A program made the position numbers and the translations under genes. DNA of 64,000 nucleotides from Advenella sp. S44 (lineage in GTDB: Bacteria; Pseudomonadota; Gammaproteobacteria; Burkholderiales; Burkholderiaceae_B). Positions 57,744 through 63,885 of the stretch are shown here, one piece after another. The notes below the pieces were generated by a model. It was given only the letters and a program-made list of their open reading frames with translations, made no database searches and was not told where the DNA came from. Position 1 is the stretch's first letter. The number at the start of each line of letters is the position of its first letter. Where the stretch lies: positions 1,302,001 to 1,366,000 of the forward strand of contig NZ_NEXS01000003.1 in the NCBI RefSeq assembly GCF_002810445.1, given 5' to 3'.

Positions 57744-58724
57744 ATGAAACCCGCCTCCATCTTTTCCATTCCCCGTGAATTAAGCGGTCCGGATCGCCGG
57801 CATCGCAGGCATATGCTTGCCCGACTGGGGCTGGCATGGCTGGTTATGATGCAGGTCATGATGTTTGCTTTTCCCGGTTATCTTCGCGATGGCTACGTTG
57901 ATGCGGAAACGGTGGACATGCTGGACACTGCCATCATTGTCATGAATTGGTGCAGCCTGGCGTTAACTTTGCCGCTGCTTCTTTATTGTGCCTGGCCGAT
58001 CTGGCGTGGCTTTGTTGGAGGCAATCCGCAAGACGCCCATCAGCAATCCATGAATTGGCCCGTTGGCCTGGGCATTGTGGTAGCCTTTGTCCCCAGCGCT
58101 CTGGCGACCGTCCGCCATTCGGGCGAAGTCTATTTCGAATCTATCGCCATGTTCGTGGCGTTCGTGCTGACGGCACGCTATCTGGCGCTTGCCGCCACGC
58201 AGTCGGCAGGCGATGCGCTTGACCAACACTTCAATCAAGAATTCAGTCTGCTGGCCGACAAGGCTGACCGTATCGGCCTGTATTTTGTCAGTGTGCAAAT
58301 AGCGCTTTCCATTGTGTCTGCGCTTGTCTGGTACTGGTATATTGATCCGGCCCATGCCTTGTCGGTACTGGTTGCGCTATTTGTCATGAGCTGTCCGTGC
58401 GCCATGGCCATGGCGGTTCCTTCTGCGCAGGCGGCGGCGCGCGCCATCATCCTTGGCAGCCCGGAGCTTAGCCAGCATGCCCTTGTCACCTTGAGTGCAC
58501 AGACCGTTCGCGTTGCCCGCCGCGCGCTTTATGGCTCGTTCCTGTGGCATTTGCTGATGATCCCATTGGCCATGATCGGCCTGGTGCAGCCCTGGCTTGC
58601 CGCTATCACCATGCTGGTTTCATCGCTGGCAGTGGCGCTTTATGTCTGGCGCTTTTATAAAAACAATGCGAGCTGCGATCCTGTGAGGACAGCTGCGGTC
58701 GCCATCAACTCGTCTTCGGCCTAG
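57744..58724 (+). CDS. CcoI-like P1B ATPase membrane core lacking the A, P and N domains
   Basis: 326 residues, against about 750 for CcoI (CtpA/FixI copper exporters that supply copper to cbb3 oxidase). Eight or so hydrophobic segments follow the CcoI order: FAFPGY...LTLPLLLYCAWPIWRG, then GEVYFESIAMFVAF, then the TM6 motif SCPCAMAMAVPSA with CPC at residues 217-219, and the C-terminal pair ending ITMLVSSLA with the MxxSS metal motif of TM8 (Met290, Ser293, Ser294). The TM7 Tyr-Asn pair is Trp268-His269 here. Where CcoI has its actuator domain (TGE loop) only about 20 residues remain (155-176). The phosphorylation/nucleotide domain (DKTGT) after CPC is reduced to about 20 (235-256). The frame is intact and under an FNR promoter, followed by ccoS. 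It cannot hydrolyse ATP. GGAGG sits 3 bases before the ATG. Confidence 0.85.
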   Translation: MKPASIFSIPRELSGPDRRHRRHMLARLGLAWLVMMQVMMFAFPGYLRDGYVDAETVDMLDTAIIVMNWCSLALTLPLLLYCAWPIWRGFVGGNPQDAHQQSMNWPVGLGIVVAFVPSALATVRHSGEVYFESIAMFVAFVLTARYLALAATQSAGDALDQHFNQEFSLLADKADRIGLYFVSVQIALSIVSALVWYWYIDPAHALSVLVALFVMSCPCAMAMAVPSAQAAARAIILGSPELSQHALVTLSAQTVRVARRALYGSFLWHLLMIPLAMIGLVQPWLAAITMLVSSLAVALYVWRFYKNNASCDPVRTAAVAINSSSA

Positions 58725-58731
58725 CATCGCC

Positions 58732-58896
58732 ATGGACGTGTTTTTCCTATTGGTCCTGCTGGCTTTTCTTTTCGTCATGTGCATTGGCGGCGTCCTGTAT
58801 TGGGCGGTGATGTCGGGCCAGTTCGAAGACACTGACCAAAATGCAAACCTGATATTGCAGGACCAGGATGCTGACACCCGGTCGCATGATCACTAA
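58732..58896 (+). CDS. ccoS: cbb3 oxidase maturation protein CcoS
   Basis: 54 residues, too short for most gene calls. One membrane helix (about 2-22, FFLLVLLAFLFVMCIGGVLYW in essence) is followed by the CcoS family element 'WAVMSGQFEDTD' (usually WAvrsGQFdDld) and a short acidic tail. CcoS is needed for copper and heme insertion in CcoN. It starts 7 bases after the CcoI-like gene and is translated with it. Confidence 0.92.
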   Translation: MDVFFLLVLLAFLFVMCIGGVLYWAVMSGQFEDTDQNANLILQDQDADTRSHDH

Positions 58897-59121: not shown

Positions 59122-60594
59122 ATGCGTGTCCAGAATGCGCGCTCCGCAGATGCGGAGATCTTCAATTATAAAGTTGTGCGGCAATTTACCATCATGACGG
59201 TTGTGTGGGGGATTGTCGGCATGTTTGTTGGTGTCTATATTGCTGCACAGCTGGTTTGGCCGGAACTTAACTTTGTCGACTGGCTCAGTTACGGTCGCTT
59301 GCGGCCACTGCATACCAATGCGGTCATTTTTGCCTTTGGCGGCAGTGCGCTTTTTGCCACTTCCTATTACGTCGTTCAGCGTACCTGTCAAACGCGGCTC
59401 TTTTGCGGGCCGCTGGCTTCTTTCACTTTCTGGGGATGGCAGCTGGTCATTGTGGCCGCGGCAATTACGCTGCCAGCCGGTTACACCACCAGCAAGGAAT
59501 ACGCCGAGCTTGAATGGCCGATAGATATTTTGATTACCCTGGTTTGGGTCGCCTATGCGATTGTGTTTTTTGGTACAGTAGCCAAACGCAAGATGAAGCA
59601 CATCTATGTCGCAAACTGGTTCTATGGTTCGTTTATCCTGACAATCGCCATTTTGCATATCTTCAACAATATTGAATTGCCCTACAGCTGGTTCAATTCC
59701 TATTCCGTCTATGCAGGAGCACAGGATGCCATGGTGCAATGGTGGTATGGCCATAATGCTGTGGGGTTCTTCCTGACCACCAGTTTCCTGGGCATGATGT
59801 ACTACTTCGTGCCGAAACAGGCCAACAGGCCGATCTATTCCTATCGACTTTCCATTGTTCACTTCTGGGCCCTGGCGTTCACCTATATGTGGGCCGGTCC
59901 CCACCATTTGCTTTACACTTCGCTGCCCGACTGGACGCAAAGCCTGGGCATGGCTTTTTCCCTGATCCTGCTGGCACCGTCATGGGGCGGCATGATCAAC
60001 GGCATCATGACCCTGTCCGGCGCCTGGCATAAGCTGCGTACCGACCCTATCCTGAAGTTTCTGGTCGTGGCGCTGTCATTCTACGGTATGTCCACTTTTG
60101 AAGGCTCCATGATGTCCATCCGTACCGTGAATGCACTGTCGCACTACACGGAATGGACGGTTGCGCACGTGCACTCAGGCGCACTGGGATGGGTGGCCAT
60201 GATTACCTTCGGCAGCCTGTACTACATGATTCCGCGCCTGTACGGCCGCCAGAGCATGTACAGCACATCACTGATCGAAGCGCACTTCTGGATGGCTACC
60301 ATCGGTGTCGTTTTGTACATCGCATCCATGTGGATTGCCGGTGTGATGGAGGGGCTGATGTGGCGTTCAACTGAAGCCGACGGTACGCTGACCTACGCCT
60401 TCATCCAGGCCCTTGCATCCAAGTATGTGCTTTACCTCATTCGCATTGTGGGCGGACTGTGCTTCTTGAGCGGCGCGCTGGTCATGTTCTACAACATGAT
60501 CATGACCATCAAGGGACTCAAGGGCGTCAATCCGCAAGTGCCCGAGTTTATCGGACACGATGCCCGCCTTGCTCAATCCGCTACTGCTGTATAA
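59122..60594 (+). CDS. ccoN: cbb3-type cytochrome c oxidase subunit I, CcoN
   Basis: 490 residues, about 12 membrane helices. It is the catalytic subunit of the high-affinity terminal oxidase. Heme and copper ligands are visible as His in [15 protein letters not shown] (about residue 62), in '[12 protein letters not shown]' (about 210), the '[14 protein letters not shown]' pair (about 275) and in '[12 protein letters not shown]' (about 347). The ribosome binding site AGGGGA is 7 bases before the ATG. It is first of ccoNOQPGH, under an FNR box. Confidence 0.98.
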
Positions 60595-60604
60595 GAGATT
60601 TATC

Positions 60605-61267
60605 ATGACGAATCAAAATAAGCGTTTATTCAGCCATGAAACACTGGAAAAAAATGTCGGGCTTCTGATTGTCTTTTCTATCCTCGTCGTTGCCTTTGCC
60701 GGTCTGGTGCAAATCGTACCGCTGTTTTTCCAGCACTATACAACAAAGGCCGCGCCCGGTATCCAGCCCTTGCAGCCATTACAGATCATCGGCCGGGATG
60801 TCTATATCAAGGAAGGCTGTGTCGGCTGTCATTCCCAACAGATCCGTACGCTGCAATCTGAAGTGTCCCGATATGGTCCTTATTCGGTGGCCGGCGAATT
60901 CGTCTATGACCATCCATTTCTGTGGGGGTCAAAACGTACCGGTCCCGACCTGGCTCGCGTTGGCGGCCGTTATTCCGATGACTGGCATCGTATTCATTTG
61001 CGCAATCCGCGTGATCTGGTTCCTGGATCCAATATGCCTGGCTATTACTGGCTGCAGCGCAAGGATGTATCCAAAGAAAACATTCAGGCCCGCATGAAGG
61101 CATTGCGCACGCTCGGTGTGCCTTATACAGACCAGCAGATCGCCGATGCGCCTGCAGCGCTCAAAGGCAAAACCGAAGAGGACGCTCTGGTTGCCTATTT
61201 GCAAAGTCTGGGCGTTGGCTATCTGTCGGCACTACGCGCAGAGCAAGACGCAGCAGCGTCCAATTAA
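60605..61267 (+). CDS. ccoO: cbb3-type cytochrome c oxidase subunit II, CcoO
   Basis: 220 residues from the ATG at 60605; the frame is open to 60560 inside ccoN. One N-terminal membrane helix (about 19-40) anchors a mono-heme c domain with CVGCH in [16 protein letters not shown]-like context (about residue 75) and an axial Met ([10 protein letters not shown]). It passes electrons from CcoP to CcoN. It sits 10 bases after ccoN. Confidence 0.97.
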
Positions 61268-61291: not shown

Positions 61292-61462
61292 ATGGACATC
61301 CTTATCGGAGCAATGACTGTTGTATCTATTTTGACGTTTTTCGGAATCATCGCCTGGGCCTGGTCCAGGCATCGTGTGAACGATAACGAAGAGGCAGCGC
61401 GTTTGCCGTTTGCCGTCCCGGACGAAGAAACGACAAATCGTGGTGAAGGGTATAAAAAATGA
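61292..61462 (+). CDS. ccoQ: cbb3 oxidase small subunit CcoQ
   Basis: 56 residues. One membrane helix (about 8-28, VVSILTFFGIIAWAWS) and a polar C-terminus (LPFAVPDEE) match CcoQ, which stabilises the oxidase. It overlaps ccoP by 4 bases (ATGA). It is too short for most gene calls. Confidence 0.9.
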   Translation: MDILIGAMTVVSILTFFGIIAWAWSRHRVNDNEEAARLPFAVPDEETTNRGEGYKK

Positions 61463-62361
61463 GCGATTTTTTCAGTAATTCATGGAGTTATTACATTGCC
61501 ATCGTGTCGCTGGCCGGTGTGGCATGGTGTGTGTGGCTGTTGTTTACGCAGCGTCGGTGGCTGAAGAACGCACCGCCGCAGGTTGAGGATACCGGCCATG
61601 TCTGGGACGAAGACCTGCGTGAACTCAATAATCCGGTTCCGCGGTGGTGGACGGTGATGTACCTCGGCCTTTGCGCCATTGCGTTGAGCATTATGGTACT
61701 GTATCCGGCGCTGGGCTCGTATCCGGGTCTGCTCGGCTTCACATCGGCCAAGCAGGTTGTTGCCAAGCGTCAAGAGCTGGCCGCACAGATCAAGCCTTTG
61801 TTTGACCGGTTCTCTGCATTGTCCGTAGAGGAACTGGCCGGCAACGCAGAGGCCAATGCCATCGGCAAGCGGCTGTTCCTGAACAACTGTGCGCAATGCC
61901 ACGGCTCGGATGCCAAAGGCTCACCGAACTTTCCCAATCTGACCGATAATGACTGGCTCTATGGCGGCACACCCGAGGTAATAGTCAAGACCATTACCGA
62001 TGGTCGCCATGGCATGATGGCGCCGCTTGCGGCAGCAATTACGCCTGCACAGGCCAACGAGATTGCCAACTATGTGCGTTCGCTGTCCGGGCTGACTAGT
62101 GATCCGACGTTGCTGTTAGCCGGAGAGGCAGGCTTTAAAAAAGTATGTTTCGCCTGTCACGGCATGGATGGCAAGGGGAACCAGGCGCTGGGCGCACCCA
62201 ACCTGACTGATTCTATCTGGCTAGGCAGCAGTTCGAAAGAGAGCATTGTCAATACCATTCTGCACGGACGCGAGGGCGTGATGCCGGCGCAAAAACATAT
62301 TCTGTCCCAAGATCAGATCCGCATGCTGGCAGCGTATGTTTGGGGCCTGTCCAACAAATAA
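61459..62361 (+). CDS. ccoP: cbb3 oxidase di-heme subunit CcoP
   Basis: 300 residues. Two N-terminal membrane helices (about 12-28 and 58-80) precede two cytochrome c domains with CAQCH (about residue 138) and CFACH (about residue 229); each has its downstream Met ligand (GMMAPL and GVMPAQ). It takes electrons from soluble cytochrome c or the bc1 complex. Overlap with ccoQ and a 24-base gap to ccoG mark one operon. Confidence 0.97.
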   Translation: MSDFFSNSWSYYIAIVSLAGVAWCVWLLFTQRRWLKNAPPQVEDTGHVWDEDLRELNNPVPRWWTVMYLGLCAIALSIMVLYPALGSYPGLLGFTSAKQVVAKRQELAAQIKPLFDRFSALSVEELAGNAEANAIGKRLFLNNCAQCHGSDAKGSPNFPNLTDNDWLYGGTPEVIVKTITDGRHGMMAPLAAAITPAQANEIANYVRSLSGLTSDPTLLLAGEAGFKKVCFACHGMDGKGNQALGAPNLTDSIWLGSSSKESIVNTILHGREGVMPAQKHILSQDQIRMLAAYVWGLSNK

Positions 62362-62385: not shown

Positions 62386-63885
62386 ATGTCTGATAAGCAA
62401 GCAGTGCAGCCCGCCGCGCAGGACGCGGCCCCGGCCTGGCAGCCACCAAGAATGGTGCCGGCCCGCGCCGTTCCCGCCGACGACAGCAGTATGCAGGTCG
62501 AGGAAATCCGTGCAAAAATATATCCGCGGTCTGTGACGGGTGTATTTGCCAAATGGCGGATCATCTTGGTGATTGTGACTCAGGCGATATTTTATGGCTT
62601 GCCCTGGGTGCAGTGGGGTGGGCGCCAGGCGGTCCTGTTTGATCTGACAGAGCGCAAGTTCTATCTTTTTGGGATTGTGCTTTGGCCGCAGGATGTGTTT
62701 TACCTGGCGATCATTCTGATCATTTCGGCCTATGGGCTTTTTTTGTTTACCGCCCTGGCCGGTCGCCTGTTCTGTGGTTACGCCTGTCCGCAAACGGTTT
62801 ATACCGAAATTTTTATGTGGATAGAGCGCAAGGTCGAAGGCGATCGGGTCGCCCGCATCCGTCTGGACGAGTCTGCCATGAGCTTGCGCAAGTTCAGGAT
62901 AAAAGCGACCAAACATCTTTTATGGATCCTGATTGCCTGGTGGACCGGTTCAACATTCATCGGCTATTTTTCTCCGATCCGCGAACTGGGTACTGAACTG
63001 TTTCGTTTTGAACTCAGCTTTTGGCAATGGTTCTGGATGGTTTTTTACTCGTTTGCGACCTGGGGCAATGCCGGTTTTCTGCGCGAATCGGTTTGCAAGT
63101 ATATGTGCCCATATGCACGTTTTCAAAGTGTGATGGTGGACAAGGACACCTTTGTGGTCACCTATGACCGGATCCGTGGCGAGCCGCGCGGACGTCGGTC
63201 CAAAAAAACAATCCCCAGTCAGGTCGGCCTGGGCGACTGCGTGGACTGTACCATCTGTGTACAGGTATGCCCTACGGGAATTGATATTCGCGATGGGCTG
63301 CAGTACATGTGCATTGGCTGTGGCGCCTGTATTGACGCTTGTGATCAGGTCATGGACAAGATGAACTACCCGCGCGGGCTGATTCGTTATACGTCCGAGA
63401 GCGGGATGCTTGATCGGCTGGACAATAAACAGGCCCGCAAGCGTTTGTTCAAACCTCGCATTTACGTTTACATTGGACTGCTGAGCATCTTCATCATCGG
63501 ATTGGTGGTATCTCTGTCGATGCGCACGCCGCTAAGGGTCGATATCGTGCGCGACCGAGGTGTGCTTGGGCGTGAAGTGCCCGGTGGACTGATTGAAAAC
63601 GTCTACCGCATTCAGATTATCAATATGTCGGAGAAAGACCAGAATTTCGCGGTGAAGGCGGTCTCCCGGGATATCCCAGCGGTAACGGTGCTGGCCGGTG
63701 ATGACAATTCACAGCAGATTGCCGTACCGGCTTTTTCGAATCAGTGGATTCCGATCGTGATTCGTGTACCGGTAGAGGGCTCGGCAAAGGGCCTGCATCC
63801 ATTGACACTGCTTATTGAAAACACGGATAAGACCGCGGACAAATTATCGGTTGAACAAGATACCACTTTTTTTGTCCCTCATTGA
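62386..63885 (+). CDS. ccoG: cbb3 maturation ferredoxin CcoG (RdxA/FixG)
   Basis: 499 residues with about five membrane helices. Two 4Fe-4S clusters are bound by CVDCTICVQVCPTGIDI and CIGCGACIDACDQVMDK (about residues 285-325); a further 'CGYACPQTVYTE' is at about 128. CcoG is a cupric reductase that readies copper for the oxidase. The C-terminal third is a periplasmic Ig-like domain. It follows ccoP directly. Confidence 0.96.
   Translation: MSDKQAVQPAAQDAAPAWQPPRMVPARAVPADDSSMQVEEIRAKIYPRSVTGVFAKWRIILVIVTQAIFYGLPWVQWGGRQAVLFDLTERKFYLFGIVLWPQDVFYLAIILIISAYGLFLFTALAGRLFCGYACPQTVYTEIFMWIERKVEGDRVARIRLDESAMSLRKFRIKATKHLLWILIAWWTGSTFIGYFSPIRELGTELFRFELSFWQWFWMVFYSFATWGNAGFLRESVCKYMCPYARFQSVMVDKDTFVVTYDRIRGEPRGRRSKKTIPSQVGLGDCVDCTICVQVCPTGIDIRDGLQYMCIGCGACIDACDQVMDKMNYPRGLIRYTSESGMLDRLDNKQARKRLFKPRIYVYIGLLSIFIIGLVVSLSMRTPLRVDIVRDRGVLGREVPGGLIENVYRIQIINMSEKDQNFAVKAVSRDIPAVTVLAGDDNSQQIAVPAFSNQWIPIVIRVPVEGSAKGLHPLTLLIENTDKTADKLSVEQDTTFFVPH

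Follow-up and report, generated by a model that had tools for sequence, protein, structure and literature searches.

The analysed window, a stretch of 64,000 nucleotides from Advenella sp. S44, contains a cbb3 oxidase locus in which the gene at the ccoI position encodes a protein (P0001) far shorter than CcoI, the copper ATPase usually found there. In current thinking, the supply of CuB to the cbb3 oxidase centres on CcoI as an ATP-driven hub. Comparison with relatives showed, as far as sequences can do so, that this short form is a CcoI descendant that lost three domains while still in the ccoI-ccoS-ccoNOQP locus.

The reduced ccoI gene and its locus

Open frames encoding the short form were identified at 83 loci, excluding the duplicate locus of the window (L004). 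These loci represent 71 distinct proteins; 12 of the proteins sit in two loci each, the same genome having been reached by two routes. The comparison sets comprised 46 full-length CcoI-like proteins, partly selected by their DKTGT motif and without the truncated protein of L094, and 13 CopA proteins. Residue-by-residue reading covers these 83 loci and a small number of others.

Alignment with full-length CcoI revealed that the N-terminal metal-binding region, the actuator domain, and the phosphorylation/nucleotide domain are all gone in the short form. The median length of the stretch before Q37 is 36 residues in the 71 short proteins and 203.5 in the 46 full-length ones, while the corresponding medians are 72 and 176 residues from R145 to C217, and 50 and 301.5 residues from C219 to position 269. 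The first-pass annotation of the window had described the loss of the two large cytoplasmic domains, and both are indeed missing; its account was incomplete in that the N-terminal metal-binding region has disappeared as well. The same annotation had proposed looking for matches without DKTGT; none of the 71 distinct short proteins carries this motif, whereas it is found in 46/46 of the full-length set that was partly chosen by it. The GDGxND hinge motif is distributed in the same way (0/71 and 46/46). The letters TGE occur in one of the 71 short proteins, at a spacing too small for an actuator domain, against 41/46 full-length proteins, and neither of the N-terminal metal-binding motifs, CxxC and CCxGC, was found in any short protein (0/71 for each). 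On its own, the short form is unable to hydrolyse ATP and cannot be an ATP-driven pump. The possibility that the motor domains are encoded as separate genes was ruled out for the window genome, where none were found.

Profile searches gave a similar picture. P0001 matched PF00122 (E1-E2_ATPase) only partially, at 34.1 bits, and scored 59.8 bits with the NCBIfam model of copper-translocating P-type ATPases (TIGR01511), far below the cut-off of 397. This model was matched at E <= 0.001 by all 71 short proteins, the cut-off itself having been compared for the window protein. In the short form, a conserved N-terminal motif (residues 5-22) stands in the place of the metal-binding domains and could be a docking signal.

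The first-pass annotation had also pointed to an FNR promoter and to a place before ccoS, and both were recovered among the relatives. A relaxed FNR pattern lies at most 200 bases upstream in 71 of the 83 loci with the short form; 20 mononucleotide shuffles of the upstream sequence gave it in 1.0/83 on average. The ccoS gene is located downstream in all 83. The ccoN gene lies at most 1600 bases from the short form in 82/83 loci. The exception is L078 of Bordetella sp. LUAb4, where ccoN adjoins the short ccoI but is divergent, the sole such case among the 83 loci. The coordinates of the features are collected in Table 1.

Table 1. Features of the short ccoI gene and its surroundings; positions are those of the window, except for the last row
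Feature	Position	Strand	Basis or remark
FNR-like site TTGATTTAGATCAA	57694..57707	+	50 bases 5' of the ATG
ATPase-less CcoI (short form, P0001), 326 amino acids	57744..58724	+	ATG start, no internal stop
N-terminal short-form stretch (residues 5-22)	57756..57809	+	Conserved S5, F7, P10, L13, R18, R21, R22
Short loop at actuator position, about residues 150-168	58191..58247	+	R145-C217 spacing; alignment
CPC motif, residues 217-219	58392..58400	+	Alignment
Short loop at phosphorylation/nucleotide position, about residues 238-262	58455..58529	+	C219-269 spacing
W268-H269 pair	58545..58550	+	Replaces Tyr-Asn of full CcoI and CopA
M290xxS293S294 motif, last helix	58611..58625	+	Alignment
ccoS	58732..58896	+	TIGR00847, 36.5 bits (cut-off 28.35); PF03597
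ccoN, catalytic subunit with heme b3-CuB	59122..60594	+	PF00115; TIGR00780, 760 bits (whole-genome search)
ccoO	60605..61267	+	Position and CxxCH; open reading frame listed from 60560, start picked by eye
ccoQ	61292..61462	+	Position
ccoP	61459..62361	+	PF14715, PF13442
ccoG-like ferredoxin membrane protein gene	62386..63885	+	Position and sequence by eye
Divergent short ccoI/ccoN region, Bordetella sp. LUAb4 contig (L206)	1647-2669 and 2697-4205		

Distribution, origin and selection

A peptide-pattern scan of 84,980 species genomes returned 79 loci, of which 55 hold the short form and 24 hold full-length forms from other groups. The 55 short-form loci belong to Advenella, Pelistega, Pusillimonas, Candidimonas, Yanghanlia, Paenalcaligenes, Castellaniella, Pollutimonas, Brackiella, and Parapusillimonas, among others, and further include Allopusillimonas, Eoetvoesiella, Bordetella, other Alcaligenaceae, and one Burkholderiaceae metagenome-assembled genome. 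The short form was found in 28/61 relatives searched. For the family as a whole, 229 genomes at least 90 percent complete were considered, and the short form was scored by tblastn-type comparison with P0001, with E < 1e-50 required; the best scores of full-length CcoI against P0001 were never better than 1e-30. Among the matches listed, the short form is present in 162/229 genomes, a weaker P0001 match lies inside a full-length frame in 14/229, and 1/229 (G244) gave a fragment of 129 residues at the end of a contig, which was assigned to neither the short nor the full class. A looser limit added three full-length frames of 756-798 amino acids (G170, G179, and G182), and one listed P0001 match, in G194, carries an internal stop.

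Among 399 genomes drawn from the order, the short form was encountered within the family only: 13 matches were obtained there at E <= 1e-28, of which nine are short forms from family members and four are full-length frames (701-863 amino acids) from elsewhere. Among the matches listed for the 369 genomes of the class, none other than the window spanned the full profile, with two frames of less than 400 amino acids (G903:C283 and G677:C71) left unread. In the plasmid collection, seven records matched, all weakly and partially. Three short-form genomes gave two P0001 matches each (G081, G098, and G124), which in G081 are two short copies. In G098:C1, two cco clusters were seen (L209 and near 5069171). 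Both contain a short form, and the copy in the second cluster is apparently frameshifted near its end.

The reduction is old and family-wide rather than a trait of one strain, and the short form's absence from relatives, which had been named in advance as grounds for abandoning the assignment, is excluded by these counts. A full-length frame broken by assembly errors had been named likewise. This explanation, by which the short form would be a pseudogene or a local sequencing, assembly, or annotation artefact, had nothing in its favour and was rejected, since the same architecture occurs as an open frame in all 83 loci of independent assemblies and dN/dS (the ratio of nonsynonymous to synonymous substitution rates) is low. 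In pairs of more than 78 percent identity, 58/76 had dS < 1.5, and these 58 gave a median dN/dS of 0.095 and a maximum of 0.29. These values indicate that the short form is under purifying selection and is maintained.

Concerning its origin, a CopA-rooted maximum-likelihood tree built from 275 core columns placed the 71 short proteins in one clade with a support of 54, and this clade joined the full CcoI of two family members with a support of 100. The gene order ccoI-ccoS-ccoN was also found in all five family members with full CcoI that were examined (L150, L161, L162, L171, and L172). These data point to one in-place reduction within the family as the simplest reading, while two events or one return are also compatible with a support of 54. 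Genus g27 holds both forms, full CcoI in G035 and the short form in others, and is suited to studying the replacement.

The association with the oxidase itself was evaluated with TIGR00780 at E < 1e-100, by which ccoN is present in 160/162 short-form genomes and in 14/14 genomes of the full-length group. The two short-form genomes without a good ccoN match are G079, whose contig ends 638 bases past the short gene, and G008 (G008:C1, L211), in which the short CcoI is intact and ccoN lies in frame-shifted pieces, suggesting a pseudogene or sequencing errors. Five genomes had ccoN and initially neither CcoI form: G170, G179, and G182, in which the full-length frames mentioned above were then added; G135, whose ccoN is 386 bases from a contig end; and G188, where neither short nor full CcoI was found.

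Copper-site residues and a proposed role in cbb3 assembly

The eight-helix P1B membrane fold is present in the short form, and its predicted structure, superposed as the first-pass annotation had proposed, fits solved copper ATPases. That annotation had regarded the protein as a CcoI cut to its membrane core yet still in use, which agrees with the conserved place, the FNR-like site, the purifying selection, the invariant ligands, and the superposing predicted structure. C217, P218, C219, M290, and S293 are common to all 71 short proteins, 46 full CcoI, and 13 CopA. In the window protein, CPC and the MxxSS motif stand where they had been placed, at 217-219 and 290-294; S294 is found in 69/71 short proteins, the other two having MxxST.

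The claim that the core was simply kept holds for CPC and MxxSS, and fails for the Tyr-Asn pair. Position 269 is His in 71/71 short proteins but Asn in 46/46 full CcoI and 13/13 CopA, and the preceding position is Trp in 69 and Phe in two of the 71 short proteins, in place of the Tyr of 46/46 full CcoI and 13/13 CopA. Two further positions changed, as M223 (68/71 short) replaces the Leu of 44/46 full proteins and Gln185 (71/71 short) replaces the Val, Leu, or Ile of 45/46. In the available portion of PMC8475189, the CPC site is reported to be needed for cbb3 activity, and the second membrane copper site is described as consisting of the Asn together with the Met and Ser of the last helix. As the counterpart of position 269 is this Asn, the change to His sits in the transport site, and the aligned residues indicate that the second copper site is rebuilt, not merely retained. 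A new, potentially copper-binding His fixed in every member also argues against mere decay. Such decay, or a role without copper in which the short form would be a structural assembly factor acting with CcoS, might be supposed from the lost pump function and from the small membrane protein CcoS always being adjacent. We consider this improbable, because the ligands are invariant in all 71 proteins, the new His is equally fixed, and dN/dS is low.

A role in copper hand-over during cbb3 assembly is suggested by the retained and rebuilt ligands, by the steady association with ccoS and ccoN, and by the FNR-like control. We propose, with a probability of roughly one half, that the short form is an ATP-independent, membrane-embedded assembly factor that would hold Cu(I) and pass it to CcoN. 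In this mechanism, Cu(I) would be taken up at the CPC side, would be held in a tightened site of C217, C219, H269, and M290, and would then be delivered, as the oxidase is assembled, to the CuB site of CcoN. Any energy-driven copper export would fall to another, complete ATPase, in all likelihood the CopA type of the same genome, together with periplasmic copper chaperones.

Several observations weigh against this proposal. The two cytosolic loops that remain in the short form are poorly conserved, so that no docking surface is evident there. Position 172, of the carboxylate-type entry, is unconserved in the short form, though likewise in full CcoI, and E148 is Ala in 12/71 short proteins including the window protein; there is thus little to indicate that the uptake path is intact. 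In Rhodobacter capsulatus, according to the accessible parts of PMC8475189 and PMC5829832, CcoI needs ATP hydrolysis for Cu(I) movement and CopA is no substitute for it, and the latter source, likewise in part, reports that excess copper fails to replace CcoI. For Bordetella bronchiseptica, the sections of PMC11257404 at hand describe ccoN as highly transcribed and a cbb3-only strain as unobtainable, a failure linked by the authors to translation, assembly, or cofactors; this would bear on the proposal if that strain carries the short form.

The retention of the whole membrane core including its copper path would equally suit an ATP-independent Cu(I) transporter, either a channel or a proton-coupled carrier with H269 engaged in proton/copper exchange. 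The titratable His and the invariant Gln185 within the helices, as well as an acidic residue (Asp or Glu) at position 132 on the periplasmic side in 71/71 short proteins, are in line with such a function, which we nevertheless regard as unlikely, because P-type pumps switch access by a domain movement that is impossible in the short form and because R. capsulatus CcoI gave no response to a non-hydrolysable ATP analogue (PMC8475189, in part).

The question of a full CcoI elsewhere in the genome, raised by the first-pass annotation, was addressed with PF12156, the N-terminal domain of full CcoI. This model matched 7/229 family genomes and 0/162 short-form genomes, a negative to be read with the fact that it misses some FixI and matched 0/14 control genomes; an additional full CcoI with this domain in the short-form genomes was thereby rejected. 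The window genome encodes a CopA-type ATPase in a 777-amino-acid frame with CPC, YN, MxxSS, and MxCxxC, and also an ATPase of the zinc/cadmium type. Full-length TIGR01511-type matches at E <= 1e-60, a threshold that does not alone tell copper from zinc types and for which five candidates were scored per genome, were found in 217/229 family genomes and 160/162 short-form genomes. The remaining two short-form genomes, G245 and G249, are 91 and 90 percent complete, respectively. A full ATPase resembling CopA was seen in 15 of the 16 short-form genomes that were inspected, the exception being G245. G021 has a 780-amino-acid CcoI frame yet no TIGR01511 match at this threshold. An exporter able to supply the periplasmic side is usually present in short-form genomes, and equally so across the family.

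This wide co-occurrence could also be taken to mean that the short form acts on a full copper ATPase, for instance CopA, as its subunit or regulator and gives it access to the cbb3 assembly line. Such a partnership appears improbable, as the match is common regardless of the short form, as copA of the window genome sits on another contig beside a MerR-type regulator, away from the cco genes, and as the match is missing from the short-form genomes G245 and G249, an observation weakened by their incompleteness.

A further unusual frame was noticed in the window genome (G000:C2, L204:3366-5087, + strand), beside mgtE and mgtC. Its 574 amino acids combine an MgtA-like ATPase start (residues 37-184, with Cation_ATPase_N and a partial E1-E2_ATPase) with a Gram-negative porin at residues 213-548, and it is probably a deletion chimera or a misassembly.

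Taken further than the assembly role, the short form may tentatively be pictured as a P-type ATPase lineage without a motor that became a carrier or insertase for Cu(I), independent of ATP and built around a remodelled Cys-Cys-His-Met site. A gradient of protons or copper would drive it, if anything does, and in most family members it would be the device dedicated to loading CuB into the cbb3 oxidase; we hold this fuller picture to be possible but doubtful.

Comparison with known systems

The first-pass annotation had known of no described family of this kind, and no account of an ATPase-less CcoI was found in the open-access literature, subscription papers lying outside the search. No mention of such a protein occurs in the portions of PMC10903467 and PMC10654040 that were covered, and a search of PMC9433437 for the residues found nothing. 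For B. pertussis, the accessible part of PMC13038864 notes that several copper-insertion proteins are encoded and that their role has not been studied.

A large bacterial group with a cbb3 oxidase appears to supply CuB without the CcoI motor, which suggests a copper-loading route that is undescribed. Two roles that are usually tied, copper transfer across the membrane and hand-over to CcoN, are now separated, and hand-over can be studied alone in a natural protein consisting of the membrane core only. In addition, the defined substitution of Asn by His is offered for testing the P1B copper path.

Compared with CcoI/FixI, the CopA2-type P1B-1 ATPase, the short form shares the locus order ccoI-ccoS-ccoN, being encoded with the cbb3 oxidase genes, as well as the eight-helix core, CPC in the fourth core helix, MxxSS, and an MMQVMM-like first helix, and in the tree it lies closest to full CcoI from the same bacterial family. 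Unlike CcoI/FixI, it is without the N-terminal metal-binding region, the actuator, and the phosphorylation/nucleotide domain, and the Asn of the second site has become His, whereas the Met and Ser are retained in 71/71 proteins. The same domain losses and the same Asn-to-His change distinguish it from CopA, the CopA1-type export ATPase, which is encoded elsewhere in the window genome with all domains kept. Since the short form occupies the CcoI locus but lacks the features that define CcoI as an ATPase, it is classed as a CcoI-derived variant.
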